The notes under the pieces: generated by a model | Databases searched by the model: none | What the model was told of the DNA's origin: nothing | The model's input: the letters and a program-made list of their open reading frames with translations, nothing else | DNA from: a virus | Virus record (IMG/VR): IMGVR_UViG_3300035097_000032 | Coordinates: 1 to 39,731 of that record | DNA: 39,731 bases | Strand: one strand, 5' to 3' | Made by a program: the position numbers and the translations under genes | Shown here: positions 9,835-36,948 of the stretch, in pieces | Layout: each line of letters starts with the position of its first letter | Position numbering within the stretch: position 1 is the first letter of the stretch

Positions 9835-10329
9835 CTAACAACGATGAATATTGACGACTAACTGGCCGCCGCCGAAATGCAGAAAACCGCCTGCATCGAT
9901 TAAACCGATTGGGCGAAACTCGACGTATTCGGTCGTCACCTCGTCCTCTTCATCTTCAAATTCCCAGACGGGACTTTCCGTATCCAAATCAGCCAGCCGC
10001 CGGGCGATTCTCTCAATCGTCAGCTGCCAATCGTCCTCACTATTTTCGGCTTCAGTTCCGGCAACGTAGCCTTTGAAGCCGAGAATTTCAAAAATATACT
10101 GCTCGAACGGGACGCTCTTGCTCCGCGGCTTGTAACCAGTCCGGCGTGCGATAAAAGCCAGCGTAACCGGCGTCATTTCGCCGTTGATTTCAACTTCGTG
10201 CGTGAAATGTCCCGCCCATTTCGAGCGGTCGCCGGTAAAAGGATTGCGGCGGATTTTCCTGGCGGTCGGGCAAATCGCCCAGATTTCCGCGAGAATTTTT
10301 TCCCTTACCTTTTTTTCCGTTAACGCCAT
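9835..10329 (-). CDS. Putative tail terminator / tail-completion protein
   Basis: A 164-residue protein beginning with a basic helix (MALTEKKVREKILAEIW) and containing a long acidic stretch (EFEDEEDEVTTEYVEF). Its start overlaps the previous gene's end by ten bases. Its slot, after the gp10-like gene and before the tail tube, is where siphoviruses carry the tail terminator that caps the tube, and size and mixed alpha/beta character are compatible. No diagnostic motif is visible, so the call is positional. The two cysteines near the ends (CPTARK and the final residue) do not form a metal-site pattern. Confidence 0.5.
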   Translation of the reverse strand: MALTEKKVREKILAEIWAICPTARKIRRNPFTGDRSKWAGHFTHEVEINGEMTPVTLAFIARRTGYKPRSKSVPFEQYIFEILGFKGYVAGTEAENSEDDWQLTIERIARRLADLDTESPVWEFEDEEDEVTTEYVEFRPIGLIDAGGFLHFGGGQLVVNIHRC

Positions 10330-10721
10330 TCTTCTTCCATCCGGCCTTCGACTTTTTCAGCGATTTCCGGTATTGCCAGCTCAACAGCGGGCTCGGTAAA
10401 CGGCCGGTCGCGTTTTTCCTGCAAAATATTGCCGTAATCGATATCGGAATTGATTTGCGCTTCGTCCATCGAAAGCGCGATGACATCGAAGGAGCCGACT
10501 AAATCTTTCGAGTTAATTCCCGGCGCTTCGCCTTCCTCTGAGGCCGGTCGAACGGTGTTGTCGCGGTGCTTATACGGATTGCCGTGTTTCGGCTCGTTCA
10601 TCAAACCGACGATTTTCTCGTGAATAATTTCCGCGCCTTCATACGCGACGCCCGCGAGCATCACGTCGACATCGACGACGGCGAAAGGATTAAACTGAAC
10701 CTCGGCTGAAAAAAAACTCAT
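10320..10721 (-). CDS. HK97 gp10-like head-tail completion protein
   Basis: A protein of 133 residues from the ATG at 10721. An earlier in-frame start would run through the neighbouring gene and is rejected. The central part, VAYEGAEIIHEKIVGLMNEP followed by a Lys/Arg/Pro-rich stretch and NSKDLVGSFDV, follows the HK97 gp10 family layout: an alpha helix, then a loop with a proline-rich turn and a short strand. Such proteins join connector and tail or complete the tail. Context fits: head-tail joining genes lie on one side and the terminator candidate on the other. The assignment to gp10 is moderate; the exact subfamily is uncertain. Confidence 0.55.
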   Translation of the reverse strand: MSFFSAEVQFNPFAVVDVDVMLAGVAYEGAEIIHEKIVGLMNEPKHGNPYKHRDNTVRPASEEGEAPGINSKDLVGSFDVIALSMDEAQINSDIDYGNILQEKRDRPFTEPAVELAIPEIAEKVEGRMEEEWR

Positions 10722-10725
10722 CGTA

Positions 10726-11097
10726 TTACTCCGGCGAGAAGCTCTGGCCTGTGCGTTTGTAGGAAAGTTTCCACCACGGCTCTTCGCCTTCGGGCGGAAC
10801 TTTGCCGTCGCCGCCTTCGCCGTCATCATCCTGCAGCTCGTAAACTCGGCCGCTGACGCTGAAATAGCCGGACAGTTCGAGCTTTTTGGCGAAATCCGTA
10901 TCCGGCGCGGCAACCAGAAGTTTTTTCTGTTTGGTGTCGAGATACCAGCCGCCGCTGATTTCAAGCTTTACGCTGAAAACTTCTTCGTCGCCGTCGCCGG
11001 CGAGCAGATAGCAAACCGGGCTTTCCGGATAGAAAATCTCGCGCAGGGCGTCGAATTCCAGCTTTTTCGCAGCGATAATTTCACCAAGAATCGACAT
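10726..11097 (-). CDS. Putative head closure / head-tail joining protein
   Basis: A 123-residue protein opening with MSILGEIIAAKKLEFDALRE, then a beta-rich middle (EEVFSVKLEISGGWYLD) and a Gly/Asp/Glu-rich C-terminal region. It lies four bases from the next gene inside the set of short head-tail genes between capsid and tail tube. Head-closure (stopper) proteins have this size and position, but no family signature is recognised. The call is by position only. Confidence 0.45.
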   Translation of the reverse strand: MSILGEIIAAKKLEFDALREIFYPESPVCYLLAGDGDEEVFSVKLEISGGWYLDTKQKKLLVAAPDTDFAKKLELSGYFSVSGRVYELQDDDGEGGDGKVPPEGEEPWWKLSYKRTGQSFSPE

Positions 11098-11111
11098 ATT
11101 TACCCTGATTT

Positions 11112-11453
11112 TTACCAGCTATAGCCGATTGGAACGCTGCACGTTTCGCTGCTGCCGGTTTGATTTTCGTCGCCGTATTGTTCGGTCAGCTCGGACAACC
11201 CGAGACGAACGCGAACGCGATTGCGAATTTCCATTCGCGTTCTTCCGGGGTCGATATCGACGCCGCTTCGACCGCCTTTCAGCCGCGTAAATTGATTTTT
11301 TACGCTGCTCCAAGCAGTAATATCGGCAAGCATCGCCGCCCACTGTTCATCATTCAAAGAACTGATGCGCTCCTGCGCGTCGGCAAAAGAAGAGAGTTTG
11401 GCGATTTCCCGCACAGTCTCGGTTTGTTCATTTGTCGGCGTCGGTGTCGGCAT
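11112..11453 (-). CDS. Putative head-tail connector (adaptor)
   Basis: A 113-residue protein with a Thr/Pro-rich first ten residues, then helical segments (SFADAQERISSLNDEQWAAM and a later RNRVRVRLGLSEL). All-helical small proteins directly downstream of the capsid genes are usually the gp6-type adaptor that docks under the portal. The basic helix near residues 70-90 could contact portal or DNA. No motif is diagnostic. The 64 bases between it and the upstream gene hold no other ORF. Confidence 0.45.
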   Translation of the reverse strand: MPTPTPTNEQTETVREIAKLSSFADAQERISSLNDEQWAAMLADITAWSSVKNQFTRLKGGRSGVDIDPGRTRMEIRNRVRVRLGLSELTEQYGDENQTGSSETCSVPIGYSW

Positions 11454-11517
11454 CTAAAATTAAAAAGTTCCGCGGAAAGCGCGAATCGCCTGCACGACCC
11501 GCGCCCGCGTAAAAAAA

Positions 11518-11919
11518 CTACTGCTTATTTCCTTCGGCGCTCATAATCGCCTGAATGATGGTGGCTTTCGTATCGGCCTGGGCAACCTCGATGCTGAAAC
11601 CTTTTGTATTCAATTCGTCGACGATGCCGAGCAGATTGGGTTTGTTTTCTTTCTCCAGGTCGCTTTGCTTGTAGCCGGTCGCCGATTCCGACGGCGGCTC
11701 GCTGGTCTGGCTGCCGGTCGAAGCGTCGCCGATTTCAAGAGCCGCGCTGAGCTTGGCCGACGTCCAATTGCCCGAAAGTATTTCGCGCGTGATGAAGCCG
11801 TCCAGCTCTTCCTGCGTGAAATTCGCGGAAATTTCATCGACGTCGATGTAGGTTTTCTGTTTGCCGTCTTCGCCGACGACGCTCAGGCCTCTAATTACTT
11901 CTCGATTATCTTTTGGCAT
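11518..11919 (-). CDS. Capsid-downstream protein with HeH/LEM-like C-terminus
   Basis: A 133-residue protein directly after the major capsid gene, with AAGGAG eight bases before its ATG. Residues 1-60 are mixed alpha/beta, 65-85 a Ser/Thr/Glu linker, and 95-130 (NLLGIVDELNTKGFSIEVAQ then TKATIIQAIM) look like a HeH/LEM/Rho-N-type helix pair. The same kind of module ends the protein at 9409-9825. Proteins in this slot may be minor head proteins. Its ribosome binding site lies just after the U-run of the capsid terminator, so it is expressed by readthrough. The function is not known. Confidence 0.5.
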   Translation of the reverse strand: MPKDNREVIRGLSVVGEDGKQKTYIDVDEISANFTQEELDGFITREILSGNWTSAKLSAALEIGDASTGSQTSEPPSESATGYKQSDLEKENKPNLLGIVDELNTKGFSIEVAQADTKATIIQAIMSAEGNKQ

Positions 11920-11932
11920 AAAAATTCTCCTT

Positions 11933-11982
11933 AAAAAATCAGCTTCAGGGCGGAGGATTTTTACCCGCCGCCCGCCGGCTGA
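11933..11982 (-). terminator. Intrinsic terminator after the capsid gene
   Basis: Just downstream of the capsid stop the minus-strand transcript can form an outer TCAGC/GCTGA stem around a GGGCGG/CCGCCC stem, followed by six Us. The AAGGAG of the next gene starts right after the U-run. It probably acts as a partial terminator that keeps capsid mRNA more abundant than the genes beyond. Confidence 0.5.
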
Positions 11983-11984
11983 AA

Positions 11985-13034
11985 TTAGCTCATGATACCC
12001 GTATCGGTCGTGTAGATTTTCTCGTCGGTCGGAATCGGCAGAGCGTCGAGCTGCGCTTGCAGCTTCAAAGCTTTGTCGTCGTTTTCGGCGAAGTGAAAAA
12101 CGGATACGCCGCGGACGTCGATTTTCGCGTCGGGAACTAGCGTGGAAAGGTCCTGCGCGCGCGAGACCGGAGCGAACGGTGTTTTGCCGACCATGCCGCC
12201 GACCGGAACAACCGCGATATAGCTTTCGTCGAAATATCGTTTTTTCTCCGTGCGTGTACCGCCGTCAACGAAAAAGTCGCCCGTTTCGTTGTTTTCGATA
12301 AAAACGATATTCAAACCGGTTCGATTACGAATTTCCTTGTAAAACTCTTCGTAACCCATACGCTGGCCGTTTGCCAGCGCCGGCGCGTCGTCGAAAATCG
12401 CCTGGATGACGGTTGCCGAGCTCATTACGCCGAGAATTCCGCCTTTGACATATGTTTTCGCGACTTTGAGCCACGCGATGAATTTGCCGAACGCGCCGGA
12501 AGTCCAGGGCGAAACGGCGACGGTCTGGCGCGCAACATCGATGCCGAAAGAAGTCCGGTAAAACTTTTTCGACTGCGCGTCATACTGGTCGATGTAGCCT
12601 TTAAGCCACGCGTCCATCGCGTCTTTTTCGAGCGTTCTCCAAGCCGCCATCGCGAGCGTGTCGCCGCGTTCCGGGATTGTTACCTTGAGCTGCTCGACCA
12701 TCAACTGCTGGTTGTTCAGAAATCTCTCTCTGAGCGCCACCAGCTCCTGTTCGTGAATCAGGTCTTCGGTTTCAATCGGGATGATGTTAATTTTCCGCGT
12801 GTCCGGCGTGATAATCGGAATGCGCCGGCCGTGAGCGTCCCATTCGCGGCGCGCGCCGACCGGGCGGAAATCCTTCGTAATCAAATCGGTCACGTCGTGC
12901 GTTTGAACGTCGACGCGCGGGAAAAGCGTCGACCATTTGAGCGTGCCGTTGTCCGTCGGGTCGAGCATTTGCACTCTGACCGTGAGAGCAGCAGCAGTTA
13001 ATTTTTTGACTTTTTCAATCCAAGATAACTTCAT
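11985..13034 (-). CDS. Major capsid protein (lambda gpE-like, HK97 fold)
   Basis: A 349-residue protein, the usual length for a lambda E-type capsid protein. It has the family layout: N-terminal arm, then DVTDLITKDFRPVGARREWD and RRIPIITPDTRK, a long helical spine (ELVALRERFLNNQQLMVEQL), DAMDAWLKGYID, and a C-terminal A-domain with VVPVGGMVGKTPFAPVSRAQ. AAGGAG lies ten bases before the ATG. Gene order scaffold, decoration protein, capsid is typical. A terminator follows. No head maturation protease is seen in the window, and the N-terminus shows no long delta domain, which fits a separate scaffold without cleavage. Confidence 0.85.
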   Translation of the reverse strand: MKLSWIEKVKKLTAAALTVRVQMLDPTDNGTLKWSTLFPRVDVQTHDVTDLITKDFRPVGARREWDAHGRRIPIITPDTRKINIIPIETEDLIHEQELVALRERFLNNQQLMVEQLKVTIPERGDTLAMAAWRTLEKDAMDAWLKGYIDQYDAQSKKFYRTSFGIDVARQTVAVSPWTSGAFGKFIAWLKVAKTYVKGGILGVMSSATVIQAIFDDAPALANGQRMGYEEFYKEIRNRTGLNIVFIENNETGDFFVDGGTRTEKKRYFDESYIAVVPVGGMVGKTPFAPVSRAQDLSTLVPDAKIDVRGVSVFHFAENDDKALKLQAQLDALPIPTDEKIYTTDTGIMS

Positions 13035-13048
13035 TGCTTTTGTTCTCC

Positions 13049-13795
13049 TTATAATGCGGTCAGACGCAAGCCGCTGTTTTTAATCGCGGCCAGCTCAACA
13101 GCTGTCAACGACCGGCCGAGGTTGTCCTCGACGATCGAACGATTCACCGTCGCAATCGTCGCGCACGCCACCAGCGGGTCATTCGTGATGCTGCTCAGTG
13201 AAGTGTTCGAGGCGGCGATTTTCGTCGGTGAAATAACCATAACTGCGTCATCGGGCGCAACTCCCGCAGTCGAATTGGTTGAATTAGACGCGGCCGTAAT
13301 TCCGGTAACCGGCGACTGCTGCGCGTGCGCTAAATTCAACGAAATGTCATTCGGGCCGATTGTCTTGGCCGTTAAGCTGTAATTCGCGCCCGCGCCGCCG
13401 ACCGTGTAATAATCGGTAACTCTGGAATCAGCGCCAAGGGCTGTGCGGATTTTTCCGCCGATAGCCGCGGCATTGTCCGTATCGGCGACGGCGACGAGAA
13501 TTTCAATCGGTTCTTCATACAACTCGGAAGTAATCGTAACTTTTACGTTTCCGGCTCCGTTCGCTGTACCGACAACCGTTTGCGTTTCAACCTGCGCTGT
13601 TCCGTTCGGAGAACCGAAAGCGCCGCCATGCGATGGCAGCACGACACCCGGCTTCAAAATTCCGTCCTCATCAACCTGCGATGTCGAGAGCAGCGAAACA
13701 TCCACTTTTACGTGAATAACGTTGCCCCCGAGGTTGCTGAGAAACGGGGAGGCGTAAGCCGTTCCGCCCGTAGTTTTTTCAATCAAAAGTGGCAT
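13049..13795 (-). CDS. Head decoration protein with inserted domain
   Basis: A 248-residue protein between scaffold and capsid genes, the lambda gpD position. Residues 1-65 (MPLLIEKTTGGTAYASPFLS, then DGILKPGVVLPSHGG) and 180-248 (PDDAVMVISPTKIAASN to the end) read like the two halves of a decoration protein. Residues about 66-178 are a separate beta-rich unit with VAVADTDNAAAIGGKIRTAL and a YTVGGAGANYSLTAK pattern, a small module often seen repeated in phage surface proteins. The simplest reading is a capsid-stabilising protein carrying a surface-displayed domain in a loop. The strong AGGAGA before the ATG fits high copy number. Family knowledge supports the slot; the split-domain reading is inference. 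Confidence 0.6.
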   Translation of the reverse strand: MPLLIEKTTGGTAYASPFLSNLGGNVIHVKVDVSLLSTSQVDEDGILKPGVVLPSHGGAFGSPNGTAQVETQTVVGTANGAGNVKVTITSELYEEPIEILVAVADTDNAAAIGGKIRTALGADSRVTDYYTVGGAGANYSLTAKTIGPNDISLNLAHAQQSPVTGITAASNSTNSTAGVAPDDAVMVISPTKIAASNTSLSSITNDPLVACATIATVNRSIVEDNLGRSLTAVELAAIKNSGLRLTAL

Positions 13796-13805
13796 AAAAT
13801 TTCTC

Positions 13806-14624
13806 CTATTTCGCTGTTGCCGGCGGCGGCGCGACGGGCTGGCCGCTCAGGGCGGCGAGTACCGACGCGTTGTCCGTTGGCTTCGCGGTATTCTGGTTTT
13901 TCATTTCCTCGCGAATTTCGTCGAATTCGTTTGTGCCTTTCGCCTTTTTGCCCGATTCCTGTTTGACCCACTTCTTACCGCTGCCCTGGCTTTCGCCCGG
14001 ATCGCCATCGCCATCGCCTGCGTCTTCGGCGGCGAACATATCGGCGAATTTGCTGAAAAAGTTGTCTTTTTCGAGAAATTCACCCAGCTTTTGCCGTTCC
14101 GTTTTGCCGTCTTTTTCCTGAACGACGTACCAGACTTCCGTCTCGTTTTTGTCGTCGTCCTTTTCCTTTTTGCTTTCGAATTTCAGTTTTTTGTCCTTCG
14201 CCAGCTCGACAAATTTATCGTTTAATTTGTTGGCCGCTGCGACGGTTTCAACCGTTTTTTCGTAATCGACAGCATCGAGTTTTCCTTGCAGTTCGTCGGC
14301 TTTGGTTTTCAAAGTCGGGATTTCACCGGCGGTCAATCCGGCCGTTTTCGCCGCATTGCCTAGCTCTTCCACGTCAGGGTCGACCGCGATTTTGCCGGTC
14401 GGAAGCGTTTTTGCTTCGGCGCGGGTCGCACGGTCCTCGGCTTTGCGCAAATCTTCTTTCAACGTGCGCTGCGTGTTTTCCAGGCTGACTTTGTTCTGGA
14501 TAATCGGAACATCATCATCAAGTTCGATAAGCTCCCATCTGCCGTCTCTTTCCTCGTATGCGTCAACGAGGCCGGCGGGAACGTCTTCTTTTTTCGCGTA
14601 AAAATGTTTAAGTTTTTTTGGCAT
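13806..14624 (-). CDS. Capsid scaffolding protein
   Basis: A 272-residue, highly charged, coiled-coil protein (heptads around 45-75 and 85-140) with almost no hydrophobic core, a Gly/Asp linker near 205-220 and a basic C-terminal region, placed directly before decoration and capsid genes. This is the usual form of a phage scaffold, which templates the procapsid and then leaves. No Ser-protease or ClpP-type motif is seen, so it is not a protease-scaffold fusion. The gene follows the second copy of the promoter/leader/terminator module, which separates it from portal. No strong ribosome binding site precedes the ATG. Confidence 0.7.
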   Translation of the reverse strand: MPKKLKHFYAKKEDVPAGLVDAYEERDGRWELIELDDDVPIIQNKVSLENTQRTLKEDLRKAEDRATRAEAKTLPTGKIAVDPDVEELGNAAKTAGLTAGEIPTLKTKADELQGKLDAVDYEKTVETVAAANKLNDKFVELAKDKKLKFESKKEKDDDKNETEVWYVVQEKDGKTERQKLGEFLEKDNFFSKFADMFAAEDAGDGDGDPGESQGSGKKWVKQESGKKAKGTNEFDEIREEMKNQNTAKPTDNASVLAALSGQPVAPPPATAK

Positions 14625-14683
14625 ATTCTTTTGAATTGTCCGGGATAAATTGGCTTTTGCCTGTGGATTTTGCGCTTTTGCGC

Positions 14684-14735
14684 GGAAAATAAAAACGCCG
14701 TGTAAGCTCTATTTTTCAAGAGCTTACACGGCGTT
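14684..14735 (-). terminator. Terminator/attenuator hairpin of module A
   Basis: A perfect 17-bp inverted repeat (arms 14694-14710 and 14719-14735) with an 8-base loop, followed on the minus-strand transcript by UUUAUUUU. It has the form of a strong intrinsic terminator. A candidate promoter (-35 at 14818-14813, -10 at 14795-14790) lies upstream in the same transcript, so RNA from it must pass this hairpin to reach the scaffold gene. A second, diverged copy is at 19731-19779. Confidence 0.75.
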
Positions 14736-14818
14736 ACTCGCGTTTTCTGCCCGAAATTGTTAGCGGGCAAACCAAATTTTTCAGATTCCAAAGTAAACGA
14801 TAAACGGAAAAAAAGCAA
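14684..14818 (-). repeat. Promoter-leader-terminator module, copy A
   Basis: One of two related intergenic units (the other is 19731-19861). Order on the minus strand: TTGCTT, 17 bases beginning TTTTT, TACTTTGG; an AT-rich stretch; a small hairpin with TGCCCG/CGGGCA arms (14748-14769); then the terminator hairpin. Both copies share the -35/-10 spacing of exactly 17, the TTTGCCC leader hairpin and the terminator stem. Copy A separates portal from scaffold. It probably starts or gates a capsid transcription unit. Confidence 0.65.
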
Positions 14819-14848
14819 GATAAAACGAAATATTTCGTAAAATTAGCA

Positions 14849-16612
14849 TCAAGCGCCCGCGCCAGCTCCTGCGCCCTGACCGCTATGACCGCCGCCCGAG
14901 TCGACGACGGTCATCTGGTCCAAAATCTGTTTTCGCTCGGCATCGTCCCTGTAGCCTGCAATTTTGAGTATCTCGTCATTCGGCAAGCCGACATTTTTCG
15001 CGAGATTCGCGACTTCCAATCGTTTTTTCATCAGGCTCAGTTGATAAAATTCACTTTCCTGAAGCCGCGCCACTTCCGCGTCAGGGTCTTCGATGCCGCG
15101 CCGGGCATGATAGGTTTCGACGGACATATAGCCGCTGTCGACGTCCTCGCGGTCGACTTTGACCTGTTCAGGGTCAACGGCGCCGGCGTCGACAATAGCA
15201 TTGAAATCGACACGAAAATTTTCGAATTCTTTCTCGCGCGTCGCGCCACCGCCGCCGGTCGTGTGAGCCGCCGCAAAGAGCAGGCCGACTTCCAGAATCC
15301 ATCTGCCGAGCGGGTCGGCCGCGGACTTTGAAGTTTTCAGCGATTTTTCGAATTCGGCGCGTCCTTCCTGTTTCGAAATGCCGGAAGCGTCAGTCATATC
15401 GTTGAGCTGCACGTGACTCTGTTTGGCGCGGCCGAGCATCGCCATTTTCAGCTTGTCGCGCCGCTTATCGAAAACATCCGACTGAACAGGGTCGACGATG
15501 ACGACATTGGCGGTGGCGTAGCCTACGAGCTTTCTCTGTTCACCTTCCGTGCCCTGATAAATCGGCGAGCCGCCCAGAAAAGTCGCCGACGAACCGCCGA
15601 TTTGAAGCGGAGCGTCTTCGGTCGTTTCGACAGTAGAGCCGTCCGTTCCGCGTCTTTTAACCGTTTTTTTTGGCCTCTGTGAATTGATAAAATATCGCTC
15701 TCGGCTGCCGGCGATGACGATGTTTTTCCCGCCCATCGTCCAAGTCAAATTCACCTGCTTCTGCTGCGAGCGAACCTGCTCATCAATCAGCGTCGAGCGC
15801 GAAAGCTCAAACATTAAAAGATTTCCGTCGAGCTTGAGCGGCTGAATTTCGGGCGGTGCTTCCTCAGAGTCGGCGGGCGGAATATAAGCCGCAATCGTCG
15901 GCAGAGTTTCCTGAGCGAATTCCAGCAAAGTCTGTTCTTCAAAAACTCTAAGACGAGTGTTGCCCTCTTTATCGAGAAAGGTCAGCTCTACCTTTTTATC
16001 GTCGCCGCCAGTCGCGAAGATTCCGAAAGGCTCGTTGCGTTCCGAATCGTAAAAAATGCCGGCGACGTCTGCGGGCAAAACCTCGAACTGAAGCATTTTC
16101 AGCGCGTCCGACAGATTCTTATGCGTTTGAATATTTCCCGATTCGTCCACAAACCCGGGCGGAACATATGCGCGGACGACGCATTTATCCTGAATCAGCG
16201 CGGTGGACAGGGCCTCGCGCAGCGTTCCGAGCATCTTCCGGTCGTTCCACCATTCGACGAGCGCGGCGACGGTTTCCCGAATCATTCGTTCCTGCGGAGT
16301 TTCCCCGTCGCCGGCGTTTCCATCCGGCTCGGCCGCCGCCATATCGACCAGATTCCAGTCCGGTTCGCGTGCGATGACGCCGTCCAGGTGTCGCTCCACG
16401 ATTTCGGCGATTACGTTTTCCGAGGTAAAAGCTTTTTGAATCGTGTCGATTATCTGCTGGCGATTCTCGACGTATAGCGGAGGCAGCGCCGGAAAGCCTT
16501 CGCCTTCCTGCCAGTGGTCTCCGTCGAGAAAAAGTTTATTTGCCTTGTGTCCCGCTGTGATGCGGTCTTGCAGCAATCGCTGCGCTTCGCCTAAAGTAAT
16601 GTTTTTATCCAT
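14849..16612 (-). CDS. Portal protein
   Basis: A 587-residue protein directly downstream of the large terminase. Portals form the dodecameric ring through which DNA enters the head. The family layout is visible: an N-terminal helical part with GDHWQEGEGFPALPP, WWNDRKMLGTLREALSTALI in the clip/stem-proximal region, and FEVLPADVAGIFYDSE. Helical stem and wing segments follow (KLKMAMLGRAKQSHVQL, then QEGRAEFEKSLKTSKSAADP), and a Gly/Ala-rich tail ends the protein. It looks like the SPP1 gp6-type branch. GAGGTG lies seven bases before the ATG and overlaps the terminase stop, so translation is coupled. The gene ends before module A. Confidence 0.85.
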   Translation of the reverse strand: MDKNITLGEAQRLLQDRITAGHKANKLFLDGDHWQEGEGFPALPPLYVENRQQIIDTIQKAFTSENVIAEIVERHLDGVIAREPDWNLVDMAAAEPDGNAGDGETPQERMIRETVAALVEWWNDRKMLGTLREALSTALIQDKCVVRAYVPPGFVDESGNIQTHKNLSDALKMLQFEVLPADVAGIFYDSERNEPFGIFATGGDDKKVELTFLDKEGNTRLRVFEEQTLLEFAQETLPTIAAYIPPADSEEAPPEIQPLKLDGNLLMFELSRSTLIDEQVRSQQKQVNLTWTMGGKNIVIAGSRERYFINSQRPKKTVKRRGTDGSTVETTEDAPLQIGGSSATFLGGSPIYQGTEGEQRKLVGYATANVVIVDPVQSDVFDKRRDKLKMAMLGRAKQSHVQLNDMTDASGISKQEGRAEFEKSLKTSKSAADPLGRWILEVGLLFAAAHTTGGGGATREKEFENFRVDFNAIVDAGAVDPEQVKVDREDVDSGYMSVETYHARRGIEDPDAEVARLQESEFYQLSLMKKRLEVANLAKNVGLPNDEILKIAGYRDDAERKQILDQMTVVDSGGGHSGQGAGAGAGA

Positions 16613-16624
16613 AAGTTTTACACC

Positions 16625-18037
16625 TCAAAATTGGTAATAGCTTTCGGTCGATTCTTCCTCGTAGTCGTCGCCTCTCGGCTTCAAATCGATTTCGGCGACC
16701 ATATAGCGCATGCAGTCGCATCCGTGGTCATTTTCCTTAACCGGAGCTTCTTTGTCTTCGTCCCAAACGTATTCTTCAATTTCGTCTTCGGTGCAAAGCG
16801 GTTTTTTCGCTTCGACTAGCTCGGGGTCGCGTTCGACCAAAGAATCTCTCAGTAAATAAAGACCGGCTTTCCCGTTCGCTTTGACGCGCAGGCGAGACTC
16901 GACCTGCTGCAATCCGCTTGAAACGTCTTTGAACGCCGGAACAGTCGCCATTCCCAAATGTTTTTCCAGCGTTGCGCGGTCTTCGGCGTCGTGGTCGCAA
17001 ATAATTTTTTGGGGCAAAGGCTCGGCGTCTTCACGGATTTTTGTTCTTTTCCGCGTTGTCGGGTCGTAGTGCCAGCCGCAAACTTTGAGAATTTCGCGGG
17101 CGTGGTCTTCGACCAATCGGTTCGTGAAATAAATCTCGCGAATTCGATAAAGATTTCCGTCATTATCCATCGCCCATTCCTGCCAGACGAACGGATTACG
17201 ATAACCGAAATCGACCACCCAAAACCTGCGCCAATCGCGCGGAATGATAAATTCATCGTTCTCGTCATAACGATTTAACAGGTGAATTTTCGGGTCGTAG
17301 TTGTCCCAAATCATTCCCTCGGCCTGGACCCAGAGGCCTTTACGCAGTCGCAGATATCGCACGCCGGTCAGGTTGTCGAGCTTCGCCAGATACGCAACGC
17401 CGCGCGGCGTCATCTCGCGCGTTTGCTGATTAAATAAAACCGGATTGTCTTCGTGCCGTGACTGGAACATTTTCAGCACGCCGCGTTTCTGCCGCTGTTT
17501 GAGAAAATGTTTCGGGTTTTGCGGGTTGCAGTCGGCGAGCAGCTGCTGATATGGCATCACGCCGTTACGCAGGCGAGTAGTCAAAGCTTCCCAGTCGTCT
17601 TCGGTTGCCTCGGTAGCTTCCTGCATAAAAATCATATCGTATTCGGACGACATAATTTTCGACGATTTATCCAGACCGCCTACGACCAGAACAGAGCCGT
17701 TTTTGTATCGATATTCCTGGTCGGAAGTGAAGAAATGAACCAAACGGCCTTTGCCGAGCGCGCCGACCGGCAGAACGTGATTTTCGTAAGTGACCAGCGC
17801 GGTTTGACTGATTGACGTACGGGTTTTACGGACGAGTAGGCCGCGCATACCGGAATATTTCATCGCGCACAGGTGCATCTTTTCGAGACAGCCGCGCGAT
17901 TTTCCCGTTCCCGCCGGCCCGTCCGTGACCACTTCATCGTCCTGGCAGTAAAAGACGTCGAGCGCCGCGCCGATGGGTTGGTACGGCCGCTCTTCCGGTC
18001 GTGGCGTAATTGTTTTGGAAGACATTACTATCGCCAT
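16625..18037 (-). CDS. Terminase large subunit
   Basis: The packaging motor ATPase and headful/cos nuclease. From the ATG at 18037 it has 470 residues; a start four codons later is also possible. An earlier in-frame start at 18121 would overlap the small subunit gene and add a non-homologous basic leader, so it is rejected. ATPase motifs: Walker A GPAGTGKS at 40-47, and Walker B YDMIFMQE with catalytic E140. RNase H-like nuclease: VVDFGYRNP with D276, then IICDHDAEDR with D348/D350, and a late acidic END motif before the C-terminus. It follows the small subunit by ten bases and precedes portal. All key residues are present, so it should be active. Confidence 0.93.
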   Translation of the reverse strand: MAIVMSSKTITPRPEERPYQPIGAALDVFYCQDDEVVTDGPAGTGKSRGCLEKMHLCAMKYSGMRGLLVRKTRTSISQTALVTYENHVLPVGALGKGRLVHFFTSDQEYRYKNGSVLVVGGLDKSSKIMSSEYDMIFMQEATEATEDDWEALTTRLRNGVMPYQQLLADCNPQNPKHFLKQRQKRGVLKMFQSRHEDNPVLFNQQTREMTPRGVAYLAKLDNLTGVRYLRLRKGLWVQAEGMIWDNYDPKIHLLNRYDENDEFIIPRDWRRFWVVDFGYRNPFVWQEWAMDNDGNLYRIREIYFTNRLVEDHAREILKVCGWHYDPTTRKRTKIREDAEPLPQKIICDHDAEDRATLEKHLGMATVPAFKDVSSGLQQVESRLRVKANGKAGLYLLRDSLVERDPELVEAKKPLCTEDEIEEYVWDEDKEAPVKENDHGCDCMRYMVAEIDLKPRGDDYEEESTESYYQF

Positions 18038-18047
18038 AACCAGAAAA

Positions 18048-18659
18048 CTACACTTTAGAAGGGTCGAAACCTGCATAAACTTTCGGGAACAACGGCTCGC
18101 CGCCCGCGCCTGTGTGTTCATGTTTTTCGGTAAATAATTTGTGATATTTCCCTAAATCTCTGCGCGCTTCGTGTGCCGAATACAATTCAAACTCGACCTC
18201 TTCGTGAAGGATTTCAACGTCTGACTGTAAATCTTCGATTTCATCTTCGGCCAGAAAACCGCGCATATCTTCTCTGACTTCCGTTTTTCTCTGTTTGATG
18301 GAACGCTTCACTTTGAGTTTTTTTATCAAATGAGTTTTCCTGCGTTTTTTCGCCAACTCAAAGCTAAAATTTCCGTGCTCGTCGCAAACATCTTCGATAT
18401 TTCCTTCGGCGTATTCGGTAAGCGTTGCGAGAACAACATTTGAGGGCATAGTCATTGCCGACAATCTTTCATCGATATAAGTCTTAATCTGAGGTTTTCT
18501 AAGGTTTTCGTAAGCCACCGCCGCAAGTGTCGCCCGATTGCCTTTATACTCTGCCAACTCAGCCGCCTTCGTGCCGTTAAAATGTGCTTCGTGCAAATAA
18601 TAATCGGCAAACAATTTTTGCTTCGGCGTGAGTTTTATTTCTTCTCTTTCGTCGCTCAT
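18048..18659 (-). CDS. Terminase small subunit
   Basis: A 203-residue DNA-recognition subunit of the packaging complex. The first 70 residues match the Terminase_2 family: LTPKQKLFADYYLHEAHFNG with a following KAAELAEYKGNRATLAAVAY helix-turn-helix. The middle is a very basic helical region (KKRRKTHLIKKLKVKR), the oligomerisation part is coiled coil, and a short acidic C-terminal region would contact the large subunit. Its ATG overlaps the PAS gene's stop as ATGA, and the large subunit follows directly. The N-terminal signature is clear. Confidence 0.88.
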   Translation of the reverse strand: MSDEREEIKLTPKQKLFADYYLHEAHFNGTKAAELAEYKGNRATLAAVAYENLRKPQIKTYIDERLSAMTMPSNVVLATLTEYAEGNIEDVCDEHGNFSFELAKKRRKTHLIKKLKVKRSIKQRKTEVREDMRGFLAEDEIEDLQSDVEILHEEVEFELYSAHEARRDLGKYHKLFTEKHEHTGAGGEPLFPKVYAGFDPSKV

Positions 18660-19279
18660 ATCTTCTGCGTAGTTCCCTGCATCTCGACAAACTCGCCTTT
18701 GGCATTAAAATAAGGCTGCCACATCGAACGCGCGGGAAAAATGGTTTTGTCGGGAAGAACGGCGTCAAACTCGATATTGGATTTGGCTCTGCGCTCGCAG
18801 GCTCGAATCCAATAAGCGCTTACGCGTTCGAGGTCGTGCTTTGCTATTACCGAAAACCAGCCGTCGCCGAGCAGATCCTTTTCCTCTTTTTGAAATAATT
18901 TGCAGTAGGCTTCGTTCGCTTCGACGCATTCGCCTTTATCGTTCGCGCGCCAGAAGGGAACGGCCGAAACGTCCAATAAAAGCTCAATGCGTGCCGAGTT
19001 ATAGCGGTGAAGCTCGGCGGACTCTTCCATTTTTTGATTTATTACCGTTTCGATTCGATTCAATGCCGTTTCGACCTGCATCAGCTCTTTGAAAGCTGCG
19101 AGCACGCCGACGCCTTTTTTATAGTTGTTCCGGCTCTTGCGGATTTTATTTACAATCCAGCCTAAAATAATGCCGCCGATGGTCAGCAATTCCCAGTAAT
19201 CCTTAACCGTATCAATCCAAGTTTTGCCGTCGTCAATCATATAAATAGGAGAATGGAAATTTTCAACATCAAAAGCCAT
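18656..19279 (-). CDS. Membrane-anchored PAS-domain protein
   Basis: A 207-residue protein with one N-terminal membrane segment (about 31-45, LLTIGGIILGWIV), a coiled-coil linker (60-98) and a PAS fold at about 100-207 (SAVPFWRANDKGECVEANEA, then a WFSVIAKHDLERV segment and a PAC-like FNAKGEFVEMQGTTQ end). PAS domains sense small ligands, redox state or light, or dimerise, and this one has no output domain such as a kinase. It is co-translated with the terminase genes (ATGA overlap), so it belongs to the late transcript. Roles could include holin-like timing, membrane sensing or superinfection control, but none can be chosen from sequence. The bound ligand is unknown. Confidence 0.7.
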   Translation of the reverse strand: MAFDVENFHSPIYMIDDGKTWIDTVKDYWELLTIGGIILGWIVNKIRKSRNNYKKGVGVLAAFKELMQVETALNRIETVINQKMEESAELHRYNSARIELLLDVSAVPFWRANDKGECVEANEAYCKLFQKEEKDLLGDGWFSVIAKHDLERVSAYWIRACERRAKSNIEFDAVLPDKTIFPARSMWQPYFNAKGEFVEMQGTTQKI

Positions 19280-19318
19280 TTTGTCTCTCTCGTCCCCGTT
19301 TGCTCATCGTTGTTAATA

Positions 19319-19382
19319 TTTGCGGCTCGCCGCTAATGCGTCCGCGCGAAGCTTCAAAACACGCGAACCGGCGAGCCGCAAA
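19319..19382 (-). repeat. Stem-loop between small ORF and PAS gene
   Basis: A perfect 14-bp inverted repeat (arms 19319-19332 and 19369-19382, TTTGCGGCTCGCCG and its complement) encloses 36 bases that can form a smaller inner pairing (GTTCGCG/CGCGAAGC). No U-run follows, so it looks like a structured leader or mRNA-processing element rather than a terminator. It starts three bases after the stop of the 74-residue gene. Confidence 0.6.
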
Positions 19383-19385
19383 ACT

Positions 19386-19610
19386 TTATCTATAATCAAC
19401 CCCTGCGTCTTTGAGCATTTCCTGCCCTTCTTCGTCGTCCTCGTCGCATCTGACTTCCGATGCCCGAAAAGCTGCGTCCTTGAATATCAAAACATTTCGC
19501 TCGTCGCCGCCCGTCAGTTCGTATGCCTCGACTTTGTTCCGCGACAATATGTGCAGAAGCCGGGTAAACGCTTCTTCAGGAATGTCGTAAATTGGAACGT
19601 CGATATTCAT
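19386..19610 (-). CDS. Small acidic phage protein, 74 aa, unknown
   Basis: A 74-residue protein, MNIDVPIYDIPEEAFTRLLH with a following SRNKVEAYELTGGDE and an acidic C-terminal helix (CDEDDEEGQEMLKD). It lies at the head of the late transcript, between module B with its 21-residue ORF and the PAS gene. No motif, membrane segment or metal site is recognised. Codon use and composition match the late block, so it is probably a genuine phage gene. The start is ATG without a clear Shine-Dalgarno sequence. Confidence 0.5.
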   Translation of the reverse strand: MNIDVPIYDIPEEAFTRLLHILSRNKVEAYELTGGDERNVLIFKDAAFRASEVRCDEDDEEGQEMLKDAGVDYR

Positions 19611-19653
19611 AAAATAGAATCGAGCCGAATCACCCTTTTCGTTCCGAGAAAGC

Positions 19654-19719
19654 CTATAGCTTCAGGAAGCCGCTACGCCCGCCGGTTTCGGATAGTTTTG
19701 GCTGTAATTCTTCGTTCAT
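19654..19719 (-). CDS. 21-residue ORF just after module B
   Basis: ATG at 19719 is preceded by GGAAG five bases upstream, and the frame encodes MNEELQPKLSETGGRSGFLK plus Leu. It starts about a dozen bases beyond the terminator U-run of module B, so it would be the first reading frame on any read-through late transcript. It may be a real small protein or a chance frame with a good ribosome binding site. Confidence 0.35.
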   Translation of the reverse strand: MNEELQPKLSETGGRSGFLKL

Positions 19720-19730
19720 CGTTTACTTCC

Positions 19731-19779
19731 AAAACGAAAACACCGCGTAAGCCCTCTTTTTGAAGACTTACACGGCGTT
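19731..19779 (-). terminator. Terminator/attenuator hairpin of module B
   Basis: The arms 19739-19756 and 19762-19779 pair over 18 bp with a 5-base loop, and the minus-strand RNA continues UUUUCGUUUU. Four positions differ from perfect complementarity, and each is a G-U wobble in the minus-strand RNA but an A-C mismatch in plus-strand RNA. That pattern indicates the structure is maintained as RNA of the minus strand. Confidence 0.75.
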
Positions 19780-19861
19780 AGTGTGTTGACTGCCCGAGAT
19801 TAGTGGTGGGCAAACCTAAATTTTCATAGTCCAAAGTAACGGAAAGTTTCAAAAATTGCAA
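19731..19861 (-). repeat. Promoter-leader-terminator module, copy B
   Basis: Homologue of 14684-14818. On the minus strand: TTGCAA (19861-19856), 17 bases beginning TTTTT, TACTTTGG (-10 at 19838-19833), AT-rich stretch, small TGCCC/GGGCA leader hairpin (19791-19812), then the terminator. It stands at the 5' end of the late operon (small ORFs, PAS, terminase, portal). The -35/-10 match to the sigma70 consensus is partial, suggesting that an activator may be needed. Confidence 0.65.
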
Positions 19862-19993
19862 TGAAAACTTTACTGAAGCAGTTTATTGATTAATATTGCT
19901 CTCTAAATACTTCAATTTTGATGTATATAGTGTTATTATGCGGAACAATTTAACGAATAACATTATATTTAATCTAATTCATGGGATAAAACT

Positions 19994-20770
19994 ATGGAAC
20001 AAACTACTCCTACTCCAGATTTGAATGCCTCGGGGAAATTAGATGTGCAGGATATAGCTATTACTCTGGGAAAGAGTCCTACAGCTATCGTATACACAAC
20101 AAAAGATAATCAACTCCGCTGGCGTTATTTCGGCAATAAGGGCAATCTCCCGAACAGGCTCATTAATGCTGTATCAGAGTTTGACACCATAATGACGAAA
20201 ATAGGAGTTTCAGTTCCAAAATCTTATAAAAAAGAGGCATACTATCAATTAGGCAAATCATTGTTTGCGGCTTTAAATTGTCCTGGAACTACAAAACATG
20301 TTAGCTATTTTCGCGATGTAAAATTATTTGTAGCAGCGAAATCTAAAGAGCGCGGCCGGTTTGTTTACGTTGCTGCAAGCATGGCCTCGATATTAATTTT
20401 GGCACTTCTTATAAGTTTTTCCTACTTTGAAACAAATAATATACATGCTGATGCTGCACTAATTGAGCTCGGTGGATTGTTTGGCGCTATAGGCGCTTGT
20501 ATTTCTGTCCTGCAGAGAAATAACTCGTTAAAGATTGATCCATTCGTCGGTATTGGTTATATCTCTTTTCAAGGAATCGCTAGAATTTTTCTGGGATTCA
20601 TTTTTGGATGTATTTTTGTAATCGCCAGTAAGGCTAATTTCATTTTAGGAGTTGTTGGAAATACTGTTTATCCATTATTTATCTTATCTATTGTTGCAGG
20701 GTTTAGTGAAAGATTTATACCCGAGTTATTAAGCAGATTTGAGGCTCAAAATTTTAGGGATATTGAGTAG
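19994..20770 (+). CDS. Four-pass membrane protein, probable moron
   Basis: A 258-residue protein on the opposite strand to its phage neighbours and visibly AT-richer. Residues 1-115 are soluble (with TAIVYTTKDNQLRWRYFG). Four membrane segments follow at about 123-145, 156-174, 186-211 and 214-236, then AGFSERFIPELLSRFE at the end, a terminal pattern seen in other bacterial membrane proteins of unknown role. Lone inverted AT-rich genes between early and late blocks are usually morons expressed from the prophage, often for exclusion of other phages or host benefit. That role is inference. A GGGAT lies about eight bases before the ATG. The 130 bases upstream are AT-rich, and no clear promoter was fixed. 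Confidence 0.6.
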   Translation: MEQTTPTPDLNASGKLDVQDIAITLGKSPTAIVYTTKDNQLRWRYFGNKGNLPNRLINAVSEFDTIMTKIGVSVPKSYKKEAYYQLGKSLFAALNCPGTTKHVSYFRDVKLFVAAKSKERGRFVYVAASMASILILALLISFSYFETNNIHADAALIELGGLFGAIGACISVLQRNNSLKIDPFVGIGYISFQGIARIFLGFIFGCIFVIASKANFILGVVGNTVYPLFILSIVAGFSERFIPELLSRFEAQNFRDIE

Positions 20771-20792
20771 CATAAAGTCCTTGAAGTTCTAA

Positions 20793-21008
20793 TTATTTAA
20801 CTGTAAGTTTTTCATTTCTCTTCCAGGCCATCCTATAACCGCATTTATCGCAGATAACGTGTTGAACTTTCAAGTTCGGATTAAGTATCAACCCGAAGAT
20901 ATAGAGATACTGTCCGTCCGATTGATACAAAACGGCATTGCACGACTTTCGCGTGTCCGGCATACGTCCTTTGCAGCGAACGTCTTTAATTTCTTTTTTG
21001 TTTTTCAT
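20793..21008 (-). CDS. Com-like zinc-ribbon protein
   Basis: A 71-residue basic protein with four cysteines (C12, C23, C53, C56): RCKGRMPDTRKSC at the start and HVICDKCGYRMAWKR near the end. The pattern RCK...C...ICDKCGY resembles the Mu Com family, small zinc-binding proteins that can activate translation by binding mRNA, but it is longer between the two cysteine pairs. It lies two bases downstream of the primase-like gene at the end of the early operon. Metal binding is likely. The RNA-binding role is inferred from family likeness and no mom-like gene is next to it. Confidence 0.55.
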   Translation of the reverse strand: MKNKKEIKDVRCKGRMPDTRKSCNAVLYQSDGQYLYIFGLILNPNLKVQHVICDKCGYRMAWKRNEKLTVK

Positions 21009-21010
21009 TA

Positions 21011-22141
21011 TTAGGCTATAAATTCGACTATCGCCCTTAAGTTTTCCGGCTTTAACGCTTCCTCTTCCGATTCCATAATCGCTACACGCTCATCGAGCAT
21101 TTCATTAAATAAATCGAATAAGTATTCATCAGATAAAATTTTATTGACCTTCGAGTTGTAAGCATCAGTATAGCCATTGTGCCTCCGGGCTTTGAGTTCT
21201 CCGGCAATCAAATAATCCGCCAAATCGAATCCCCCTTTCTTTTCTTCGACGGTTGCCGCATCTTCGATAATTCTGGAAGTCGTTACGTTGAGTCCGAATC
21301 TTTGAGCCTCAATTGCTTCTCTCTGCCAGAGGTCGAAACCGTCGGCGTCGGGAAAGAGTATGATTTTCCTGCCTCTGAACCGGCGCAGTTTTTCGGCTTT
21401 AAGATAAGACTTTCCGCCGATGGCGAGCCAGATGAAATTATCGAGAAAAATCGACGCGACCGCGGCGGTTTTTTCGGCTTCGACGATTGCCACGGACTTC
21501 CTTTTATCCCTTTTCAAAAGATGCTCGCCGAAAAAGCAGATTTTGTGCTCAAAGGTTTCCGCCAGGACTTTCGTCTTTTTGAGCTCGTAGTGTATCCATG
21601 ACGGATTTACTCGTTTATCGCGCTTTCCCGTTTTTTCATCGTAGGAGATAATCTTTCCCGTCCGGGCACGCCCTTTGTCATCAATCTGCCAGAAGACGGT
21701 TTTGCCCGTCTTGGTCGTTCCTATCAGATAATCCTTAATCATCTTTTCGACGAGCTCCGGGTCGACGAAAGACAATAGGAAATTCAGGAAGCGGTTTTTA
21801 TTTGTGTGTTCGAGCGAGCGGACGACCAGAGAGTTATCGATAGTGTCGAAGTATTCGGCCTGCTCCTTTCGGCTCGCAGCATTTATCCGTGTCACGACCG
21901 CTGCGTTCATTCTGGTTTTGCCGGTAGCGGGGGCGTTTGTGCCTGACTGGGTGCCGAGCCCGAGGAACTCCTTCGGCGTCAGGTGATAACCGCAGGAGGA
22001 TTCCCGGTTGCAGCGGCCGACCGACGAGTCAAGATAATCTCCGAGCTCGTCAATGTATCTGGCGAACTCGTTTTTCTTTCCGCATGACGGGCAGGTGTAG
22101 CGAGAACGCGAACCTCTGTATTTTTCCAGTTGATATTTCAT
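21011..22141 (-). CDS. DUF6371/TOPRIM primase-like protein
   Basis: A 376-residue protein from the ATG at 22141; its MKYQLEKYRG opening is how this family usually begins, so an upstream TTG at 22228 is not preferred. Residues 5-60 are a zinc ribbon (YTCPSCGKKNEFARYID, with C17, C20, C44, C50 and RCNRESSCGYHLTP), matching DUF6371, mostly known from Bacteroidota elements. A TOPRIM-type segment follows: SVAIVEAEKTAAVAS with E221, IGGKSYL, then ILFPDADGFD with D265/D267. Zinc ribbon plus TOPRIM is the layout of DNA primases, so it should prime replication. It stands beside the iteron region and the RepA-like helicase, together forming a replication module. Confidence 0.7.
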   Translation of the reverse strand: MKYQLEKYRGSRSRYTCPSCGKKNEFARYIDELGDYLDSSVGRCNRESSCGYHLTPKEFLGLGTQSGTNAPATGKTRMNAAVVTRINAASRKEQAEYFDTIDNSLVVRSLEHTNKNRFLNFLLSFVDPELVEKMIKDYLIGTTKTGKTVFWQIDDKGRARTGKIISYDEKTGKRDKRVNPSWIHYELKKTKVLAETFEHKICFFGEHLLKRDKRKSVAIVEAEKTAAVASIFLDNFIWLAIGGKSYLKAEKLRRFRGRKIILFPDADGFDLWQREAIEAQRFGLNVTTSRIIEDAATVEEKKGGFDLADYLIAGELKARRHNGYTDAYNSKVNKILSDEYLFDLFNEMLDERVAIMESEEEALKPENLRAIVEFIA

Positions 22142-22200
22142 CAATGTTTGTAGCTTTTCCAGCCTCGTATCAATAAAAAGGGTATGACGCGATTGGGAAG

Positions 22201-22583
22201 TGTCATCTTCAGTCTTTCCTATCAACAAAACCCTTTATTTATAGTAGTTCTACTGAAGATGTCGGATAGTGTCATCTTCAGTCTTGATGACATCTTCAAA
22301 ACGTCATCTTCAGCAAGAAAATACCTGAAAATTTATAGACCTCTACCTACCCTTATCTTTCTCGCTTTTGAAAAATTCGATTCAAAAACGGTTCCGGCAA
22401 AGGTGATTTTCTTCCGATAGGTTTCCAAAGAACTTGTTTGACGCGCCTGAACTTGACGCTTCCAACCGGCTGAAGATGACACTTGCGTCATCTTCAAGTA
22501 AACCGTTAAAATAAAAGAGCTTACGGTAAAAATCCGGCTGAAGATGACATCTGCAAACGAGAGTCGCAGGCCGTCATCTTCAA
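22201..22583. other. Putative phage replication origin with nine iterons
   Basis: A gap of 438 bases between the primase-like and helicase genes. It holds seven exact copies of GTCATCTTCA (22202, 22271, 22303, 22487, 22573 in plus orientation; 22470-22480 and 22538-22548 in minus) and two GACATCTTCA variants (22288-22299 plus; 22253-22263 minus). They form two clusters, 22201-22313 and 22470-22583, flanking an AT-rich stretch at about 22315-22400. The last copy overlaps the helicase stop codon. Iterons, an AT-rich core and flanking replication genes are the form of a replication origin. The alternative is an operator array for an early regulator. Confidence 0.6.
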
Positions 22584-23689: not shown

Positions 23690-23732
23690 CTATATTTTCC
23701 CCGTCCTTTTTTTTGCTTTCTCCAATTTCGTC

Positions 23733-24092
23733 CTAGCCGATCTTGACAGTCGACCGCCGTCTGACCGGTTTCGCTTTCGCTCTTTCCTCGGCCGCCTTTT
23801 CTTTCGCCGGGCGCGTCTGCTCGCGCCACGCGGCGTCGACGTCGCGTTTTATCCATTTCAAGGGTTTTTCGGATACGCGCTTCTCTTTGAGCAGATGAGT
23901 TCCGGCCCGCCCGCGCACCACGGCTTCTTCAGAGCATCCGAAGCGATAGGCGACGTAATCTTTGCCGACCGTCGCGTTTTGAGGAAGCGCTTCGAACGCC
24001 GCGGCGCGGGTCGGATTGACGGACTTCAGGCGCTCGACCTCGTTTTCGAGATTCTCGATTCGTTCCAGAATTGTCCGCATCTCGTCGCTCAT
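23733..24092 (-). CDS. Small coiled-coil protein with possible helix-turn-helix
   Basis: A 119-residue protein: an N-terminal heptad coiled coil (MRTILERIENLENEVERLKS), then a segment VGKDYVAYRFGCSEEAVVRG followed by KPLKWIKRDVDAAW that resembles a short helix-turn-helix of the excisionase/AlpA type, and a basic Ala/Lys/Glu tail. It is in the early operon between the helicase and a regulator-like gene. It may bind DNA as a dimer. No exact family is recognised, and a role in excision or replication is not shown. Confidence 0.5.
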   Translation of the reverse strand: MSDEMRTILERIENLENEVERLKSVNPTRAAAFEALPQNATVGKDYVAYRFGCSEEAVVRGRAGTHLLKEKRVSEKPLKWIKRDVDAAWREQTRPAKEKAAEERAKAKPVRRRSTVKIG

Positions 24093-24095
24093 CGT

Positions 24096-24539: not shown

Positions 24540-24660
24540 AAACAAATCTAAGTGCAAAAATTGCGTGTAAATAAGCCTTTTCAAGTAAGAAATTTTCGTC
24601 TAATCTCAATCCGGTTCTTTGAAAATCTACTTCTTTTCTTTACGTTTTAGGAATTAATTT

Positions 24661-25077: not shown

Positions 25078-25084
25078 AGGGTGA

Positions 25085-25143
25085 TTCATTGACTCAATCA
25101 AGGGCAAGACCGTGAAAGCCTTGCCCTTGATTGAGTCAATGAA
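25085..25143. repeat. Perfect 24-bp inverted repeat
   Basis: Arms 25085-25108 and 25120-25143 are exact reverse complements (TTCATTGACTCAATCAAGGG then CAAG) with an 11-base loop. The repeat starts three bases after the stop of the upstream paralogue, and the first possible ATG of the downstream paralogue (25089) lies inside one arm. There is no U-run, so it is not a normal terminator. It could shield a start codon, protect an mRNA end, or bind a dimeric regulator. Confidence 0.85.
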
Positions 25144-25146
25144 CGT

Positions 25147-28257: not shown

Positions 28258-28287
28258 AATGTAACATTTTATGTCGCATTTTGTCAA
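28258..28287 (-). promoter_or_regulatory. Leftward early promoter
   Basis: On the minus strand TTGACA (28287-28282), an 18-base spacer and TACATT (28263-28258). Both operators 28264-28274 and 28287-28297 overlap or adjoin it, so a repressor bound there would block the early operon. Confidence 0.6.
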
Positions 28288-30830: not shown

Positions 30831-30859
30831 TTCTATTAAAAGCATTAAATAACTCAATT

Positions 30860-36921: not shown

Positions 36922-36948
36922 CTATAACTTTATTAATCAGAAAAGGGA

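Follow-up and report, generated by a model that had tools for sequence, protein, structure and literature searches.

A duplicated promoter–leader–terminator unit heading two late transcription units in an uncultured temperate phage

The window analysed here is a virus record (IMGVR_UViG_3300035097_000032, 39,731 nucleotides in full) from a temperate phage with a Cro/repressor-like pair at 28.3–29.0 kb. Its minus strand carries two units of 131–135 bp each, one at 14818–14684 (module 1, copy W1) and one at 19861–19731 (module 2, copy W2). It is well supported that these are copies of one promoter–leader–terminator unit heading two late transcription units. The initial annotation had placed one copy before the packaging genes and the other before the capsid genes. 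Two late units are indeed found, with the assignment corrected such that 14818–14684 leads into the capsid block and 19861–19731 into a PAS-domain gene followed by the terminase genes. In our preferred reading, to which we assign a probability of roughly 0.57, late transcription starts at both units, stops after about 97 nt by default and continues only with a modified polymerase.

To our knowledge, only a few cultured hosts have yielded a detailed picture of processive antitermination at phage late promoters. Here, two complete promoter–hairpin–terminator cassettes occur in an uncultured phage lineage in which the scans made recognised no antiterminator gene. The unit offers a compact cis element together with a short list of candidate factors, and its serial placement raises the question of whether polymerase must be licensed twice.

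Composition and position of the two units

Both units have the same order of elements, namely TTGC(T/A)(T/A), 17 nt, TACTTTGG, a TGAAAA stretch, a small hairpin, a linker, a hairpin of 17–18 pairs and T-rich DNA. The promoter motif previously proposed, TTGC(A/T)(A/T)-N17-TACTTTGG, is exact in both, as TTGCTT-N17-TACTTTGG and as TTGCAA-N17-TACTTTGG. The proposed succession of leader hairpin and terminator in one orientation is also present, on the minus strand, which the initial annotation had left unstated. The promoter of module 1 (14790–14818) consists of TTGCTT (14818–14813), 17 nt and TACTTT (14795–14790), with sigma-70 matches of 3/6 and 3/6, and that of module 2 (19833–19861) of TTGCAA (19861–19856), 17 nt and TACTTT (19838–19833), with matches of 4/6 and 3/6. 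Right after the predicted start lies GAAAAAT in module 1 (14776–14782) and GAAAAT in module 2 (19820–19825), each containing a −10-like hexamer (4/6) that is suggestive only. The small leader hairpin, TGCCCG...CGGGCA in module 1 (14748–14769) and TGCCC...GGGCA in module 2 (19791–19812), has a loop of 10–12 nt. It is followed by the terminator-like hairpin, which has 17 pairs, a loop of 8 and −30.4 kcal/mol in module 1 (14694–14735) and 18 pairs (four of them G-U), a loop of 5 and −27.6 kcal/mol in module 2 (19739–19779). The T-rich tails are TTTATTTT (14686–14693) and TTCGTTTT (19731–19738), respectively. From −35 to T tail, the covariance model scores 151 bits for module 1 (14684–14818) and 142.3 bits for module 2 (19731–19861), each copy having been included in building the model.

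The two units stand out within the window. A self search of the whole window with module 1 recovers module 2 (E 1.3e-22, 80% over 111 nt), and across the unit the pairwise identity is 74.8%. With up to three mismatches the promoter motif occurs at two sites in the window, exactly the modules, compared with 0.03 expected in shuffles. The module hairpins have the highest pair counts among the 24 terminator-like sites in 10001–25000; in the rest of the window the maximum for such a site is 14 pairs, in an operator palindrome. Their stems (17 and 18 pairs) also exceed the longest stem of any kind in every one of 12 shuffles (12–16). One stem in the window beats both, with 28 pairs and no T tail (25084–25144). 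No tRNA is found in the window and no Rfam family matches it at the gathering score, while a relaxed Rfam search of 14600–19950 gave five matches, all far under the cut-off and to implausible families.

This longest hairpin (up to 28 pairs, minus strand) stops 6 nt short of the start codon of an early gene (ATG at 25077). It is also present in the second phage described below (L005:2090–2148), with one arm changed, and may control translation.

The early promoter (28576–28548) is close to the sigma-70 consensus (11/12). The early arm, on the minus strand, encodes an HNH protein, an AAA_25 helicase-like protein, a DUF6371 protein and a 71-aa four-cysteine protein. After it come an opposite-strand gene (19994–20770), module 2, the PAS-domain gene, the genes of the small and large terminase subunits and a 587-aa gene in portal position; module 1, a gene in scaffold position and then the major head protein follow. 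Module 2 therefore marks the early/late junction, and module 1, which starts 30 nt past its upstream gene, lies between the packaging and the capsid genes. 'Portal' and 'scaffold' are named by place only, and neither gene matched a family.

The first clear gene of the packaging block (18656–19279, minus strand) encodes an N-terminal membrane-like stretch and a PAS domain (Pfam PAS, 2.8e-10), and a PAS gene is also there in the second phage. It is preceded by a 74-aa ORF without family match (19386–19610). The small (18048–18659) and large (16625–18121, minus strand) terminase subunits are assigned from PHROGs and Pfam. The capsid block opens with the scaffold-position gene (13806–14624, minus strand), assigned by place only, followed by a further gene (13049–13795) and the major head protein (11985–13034; phrog_29, 1.5e-10).

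Conservation and RNA pairing in a second phage

The record IMGVR_UViG_3300000549_000017 (L005) carries both units at the same two junctions. Copy 5a (L005:8818–8950) precedes its PAS/terminase block and copy 5b (L005:14852–14984) its scaffold/capsid block, with two extra ORFs separating the portal-position gene from copy 5b. The proteins of the two phages are 85% (large terminase), 61% (portal position) and 56% (scaffold position) identical. The hairpins, whose absence outside the window would have spoken against the initial annotation, are thus kept in this second phage at both places. A further record, IMGVR_UViG_3300041409_001206, does not differ from the window in any of the 19104 bases compared (100% identity) and was left out as an independent case. 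The comparison comprises four distinct copies (W1, W2, 5a and 5b) in two uncultured phages, and the order of promoter, hairpin, terminator and late block holds in all four.

Conservation begins abruptly at the promoter. Upstream of TTGC, identity in three blocks is 24.6%, 29.4% and 34.4%, and it reaches 88.3% over the ten positions that open the unit. Of the six pairwise BLAST alignments, five start within the unit or no more than 3 nt ahead of TTGC; the W2–5a alignment begins 12–13 nt before it. This jump from 24–34% to 88% indicates that conservation is bounded by the transcription unit. For comparison, four-fold degenerate sites are 48–56% identical between the window and L005 in five of six genes, and 71% identical in the helicase gene. 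Invariant positions amount to 8/10 in the −35 stretch, 5/6 in the −10 hexamer and 19/24 in the basal terminator stem; in the apical stem they fall to 4/18, and its columns 96–100 and 109–113 are still paired in all four copies.

The long stem has 16–18 pairs over the four copies. Given the structure, 95.8% of 96 cells pair and five pairs have changed on both sides, one of which (columns 55–66) holds in just two of the four copies. Controls in which the structure was slid give 0–1 such changes and shuffles a mean of 1.8, with 7 of 500 shuffles reaching five; further pair types are no more numerous than in shuffles (308/500). Three of the both-sided changes lie in the terminator stem, which also contains seven G-U cells, all in W2 (four) and 5a (three). 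Together these changes and G-U cells argue that an RNA helix is kept rather than a DNA palindrome. The small hairpin forms five pairs in every copy with one compensatory change, an outcome equalled by 19 of 5000 column shuffles. Its recovery by single-sequence folding of the leaders is not significant (z of −0.6 to −1.4), and the mean folding energy of the leaders is reached by 3 of 500 shuffles.

Copy W1 is less similar to its positional partner 5b (66.2%) than to W2 (74.8%) or 5a (75.4%), and the W1–5b alignment continues beyond the unit, to 245 nt in total. Exchange between copies within a genome, or faster change of one copy, would explain this pattern.

Only four copies, in two phages, are known. 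In the window and two whole records (L004 and L005), the covariance model R1 finds no third copy at E < 0.1; at this threshold it matches only the two places and their reverse strands, and weaker matches (E 0.15 to 9, at other loci too) were taken as chance. More distant terminase relatives (L006, 53%; L007, 38%) give no R1 match in the DNA examined. Scans of viral contigs with two patterns that fit all four copies returned only L005 and the duplicate of the window, and a pattern fitting two of the four returned nine other loci, none of which holds a unit. A scan of genome contigs gave 24 loci with helicase relatives of 27–34% identity, where the best R1 E value is 1. BLAST of module 1 reaches at best E 5 against phages and 1 against plasmids.

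Downstream of module 1, both phages retain GCGCAAAAGCGC and GGCAAAAGCC directly before the scaffold-position gene (window 14625–14683; L005:14985–15040). In each phage the first clear late gene encodes 207 aa, with a hydrophobic stretch at the N-terminus and a PAS domain (window 18656–19279; L005:8966–9589), and the two proteins are hardly similar (tblastn gives no match at 1e-4). Different opposite-strand genes occupy the interval from the last early gene to the late promoter, namely a membrane-like protein in the window (19994–20770, plus strand) and a sugar-epimerase-like protein with an 8xMP membrane protein in the second phage (L005:7119–8638, minus strand).

Proposed mode of action and alternative explanations

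In the mechanism that we propose, each unit would be a late promoter bearing its own stop signal. An unaided polymerase would start about 7 nt past TACTTT, transcribe a leader with the small hairpin and halt some 97 nt on, where it meets the long hairpin and its U tract. In lytic growth, either a phage product or the leader RNA would be loaded onto the enzyme at the promoter–leader segment and carry it past the terminator such that the packaging block (from module 2) and the capsid block (from module 1) are expressed. Transcripts from module 2 would also run into module 1, and because module 1 lies in their path only modified polymerase could link the packaging to the capsid genes. Loading might take place on the promoter spacer and GAAAAT box, in the manner of Q and AlpA, or on the leader hairpin, in that of LoaP and put; the conservation of the leader hairpin makes us lean slightly towards loading on RNA. 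While the sequence, place, conservation and RNA pairing of the units are observed directly, the start site, termination, antitermination and the use of one factor for both copies are what we infer from them.

The promoter itself is weak. Across the four copies it matches the sigma-70 consensus at only 3–4/6 and 3/6 positions. Such a weak late promoter next to an early promoter near consensus is as expected for a promoter that is helped. In the spacer between −35 and −10 (columns 11–23), 4 of 13 positions are invariant, and a repeat ACTTT-N5-ACTTT is exact in W2 and 5b, has one mismatch in 5a and is absent in W1. The −10-like hexamer after the start matches 4/6 and has A2 and T6 in every copy, which is not above chance (1340 of 20000 shuffles equal all four).

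A predicted hairpin and T-rich tail lie between the late promoter and the first late gene in all four copies, and the terminator stem is reached 96–98 nt from the assumed start. Three copies have an imperfect T tail (TTTTCGTTTT, ATTTTGATTTT and TTTTCAATT), so termination may be weak. In L005, the ATG of the PAS gene (L005:8966) lies 25 nt past the end of the stem (L005:8941), and a further start in the frame comes only at residue 66, past the hydrophobic stretch. A usual promoter would not fit behind the terminator there and must precede the stop signal, which favours a default stop that is relieved by antitermination. In the window the PAS gene begins about 460 nt behind the module 2 terminator, a distance into which a separate promoter for this gene could fit.

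A promoter of the Bacteroidota type (TAnnTTTG) was considered because the relatives of the DUF6371 protein on plasmids are all from Bacteroidota (11/11 records); the ten phage records with DUF6371 relatives include phages of Parabacteroides and Verrucomicrobia. It was set aside in view of a Shine–Dalgarno-like box in 17 of 38 chosen ORFs and the near-consensus sigma-70 early promoter. The pattern TTG-N17-21-TAnnTTTG has only two matches, both within genes, which also counts against it.

The initial annotation had suggested attenuation, phage-encoded antitermination or a put-like RNA. Of these, antitermination or attenuation remains the best reading, although it is one that we infer, and classical attenuation through a leader peptide is unlikely. 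Only the W2 leader contains an ATG, which opens three codons. All four leaders share a TTG at one position, whose frame runs for 11 codons in W2 and 5a (with similar peptides), for 14 in 5b and without a stop in W1, which argues against a leader peptide, and inspection by eye of the four leaders showed no start with a fitting Shine–Dalgarno box. Two alternative pairings were likewise set aside. An antiterminator helix ACAC/GUGU (columns 76–79 with 90–93) can form in all four copies but nowhere changes on both sides, and a universal four-pair helix turns up at least once in 1937 of 2000 column shuffles. A helix between the 5' end and the T tail (36–40 with 125–129) is not above chance either, being equalled in 979 of 2000 shuffles for five pairs and in 276 with a double change.

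The put-like reading fits in shape. The two stem-loops would together form a functional RNA that modifies polymerase in cis and guards against later terminators, the long stem being no real terminator. HK022 has two similar put sites of about 70 nt, both made of two stem-loops, and one site directly follows its promoter (PMC9378689); the units likewise come in two copies with two stem-loops adjoining a promoter, and their basal stem is kept in sequence beyond what pairing needs (19/24 invariant versus 4/18 in the apical stem). Against this, a T-rich tail stands behind the stem in all four copies and R1 finds no match at E ≤ 10 in HK022 25000–40751, a stretch in which put sites were neither annotated nor located. 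Moreover, none of the terminator-like sites on the minus strand beyond module 1 exceeds 10 pairs, which leaves a put-like RNA without an obvious strong terminator to act on, and we consider this reading unlikely. The clean ends of the unit and a folded RNA with conserved unpaired parts would also suit a gene for a small RNA of about 97 nt acting elsewhere, with the late genes read by leak-through or from other promoters. As all four known copies head a late block, no further copy turned up in the three records searched and L005 has no room for another usual promoter before its first late gene, this is distinctly improbable.

A stem of 16–18 pairs with weak T tails in three copies could, in principle, be a 5' leader stabiliser or an RNase III processing site, in which case the hairpins would protect or process the late mRNA and the T tail would be accidental. 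We give this little credence because a T-rich tail recurs in all four copies and because the conserved sequence of the basal stem and the small hairpin would be left unexplained. The least probable explanation, which we regard as remote, is an insulating terminator that stops early or upstream read-through, the promoter-like boxes being unused. The short distance between module 1 and its upstream gene (30 nt) and the poor sigma-70 matches of the boxes are in its favour. The boxes are, however, among the best conserved parts of the unit, with a sharp boundary at TTGC, and the order of promoter and then terminator is the reverse of an insulator that precedes its promoter.

Known antitermination systems and candidate factors

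If antitermination at both units is correct, the unit would work like the class that comprises lambda Q, AlpA, HK022 put and LoaP; we file it as a member of none of them. The LoaP-dependent leaders of the dfn and mln operons of Bacillus velezensis have a small hairpin and then a terminator (PMC12691694), and the unit resembles them in its predicted small RNA hairpin followed by an intrinsic terminator and in being repeated at the head of two long operons. In the same work, the LoaP hairpin has a UNCG tetraloop, LoaP is a NusG paralog and the dfn leader is far longer (417 nt), whereas the units have loops of 10–12 nt and no NusG-like gene was found among the proteins scanned.

The Q-dependent late promoters of lambdoid phages also have a late promoter followed by a terminator, and 21Q requires a binding element between −35 and −10 together with a −10-like sequence (PMC6606751). 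The conserved spacer positions and the −10-like box after the start may be counterparts of these. Unlike the Q systems, our phage has two complete copies of the unit and no Q homolog among the proteins scanned, and the conserved leader hairpin of the units goes unmentioned for Q systems in the parts of PMC6606751 that we drew on. AlpA of Pseudomonas aeruginosa acts at two loci with predicted terminators ahead of the first gene (PMC7969949, PMC9371919). One antiterminator thus serves two target loci, each with a promoter and predicted terminators before its first gene, which is similar to the arrangement proposed here. The AlpA loci described in these papers are, however, not a phage late region, and no AlpA-like match was found among our proteins scanned. 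The likeness to HK022 put is in shape only (a pair of similar RNA elements, each with two stem-loops, and one element lying directly behind a promoter). In contrast to the units, put acts in early operons and needs no dedicated protein (PMC9378689), working via the zinc domain of beta-prime, and the units differ further in the T tail behind the second stem.

The lambda boxB loop is short, and the loop of 10–12 nt in the units looks unlike it. Among the matches listed for a few keywords in open-licence papers, no title or opening of an abstract describes a phage with two such complete late cassettes.

The search for a factor covered nine early-arm proteins with both Pfam and PHROGs and other ORFs with part of these libraries. 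Among the proteins scanned there is no match to an antiterminator family, no Q, AlpA or related gene and, in the Pfam scans, no NusG domain. As 21Q, lambda Q and AlpA share no sequence similarity (PMC9371919, PMC6606751 and PMC7969949), a diverged antiterminator could be missed by such a search.

Two proteins can be guessed at as the factor by place and kind only. One is the 71-aa four-cysteine protein (20793–21008, minus strand), the last gene of the early arm and 77% identical in L005, which has no convincing family match and an unusable structure model (pLDDT 43). The other, an alternative guess, is a 138-aa winged-helix and zinc-ribbon-like protein (24661–25077, minus strand; 72% identical in L005), for which NCBIfam cas_HTH scores 2.3e-4, below the cut-off, and whose model (pLDDT 64) has no fold match at E ≤ 0.001 in the PDB or BFVD. 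Sequence searches against solved structures give best E values of 0.72 (71-aa) and 0.59 (138-aa), and neither protein has a match against phages. It is conceivable, if rather doubtful, that one 131–135 bp cassette bundles a helped late promoter, a hairpin that loads an antitermination factor (or is self-acting) and a terminator, and is used twice in series as checkpoints, with polymerase re-licensed or kept licensed between the packaging and the capsid genes. The factor would then come from a protein family not yet known in antitermination, with the 71-aa cysteine protein and the 138-aa winged-helix zinc protein as possible examples.

Some other features of the window deserve mention. Around the cro-like gene there are three similar 27-nt stretches (28271–28297, 28560–28586 and 28597–28623, the latter two being 81% and 74% identical to the first), which are probably repressor operators, one of them over the near-consensus early promoter. 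The accessory arm (30788–39090) encodes an ATPase with AAA_15/SMC-like domains, an N4/N6 methyltransferase adjoining an EcoO109I-type restriction enzyme, a large deaminase of family phrog_9198 and a WD40 protein. A palindrome of 15 pairs with a loop of 3 lies at 35080–35112, upstream of the deaminase gene.
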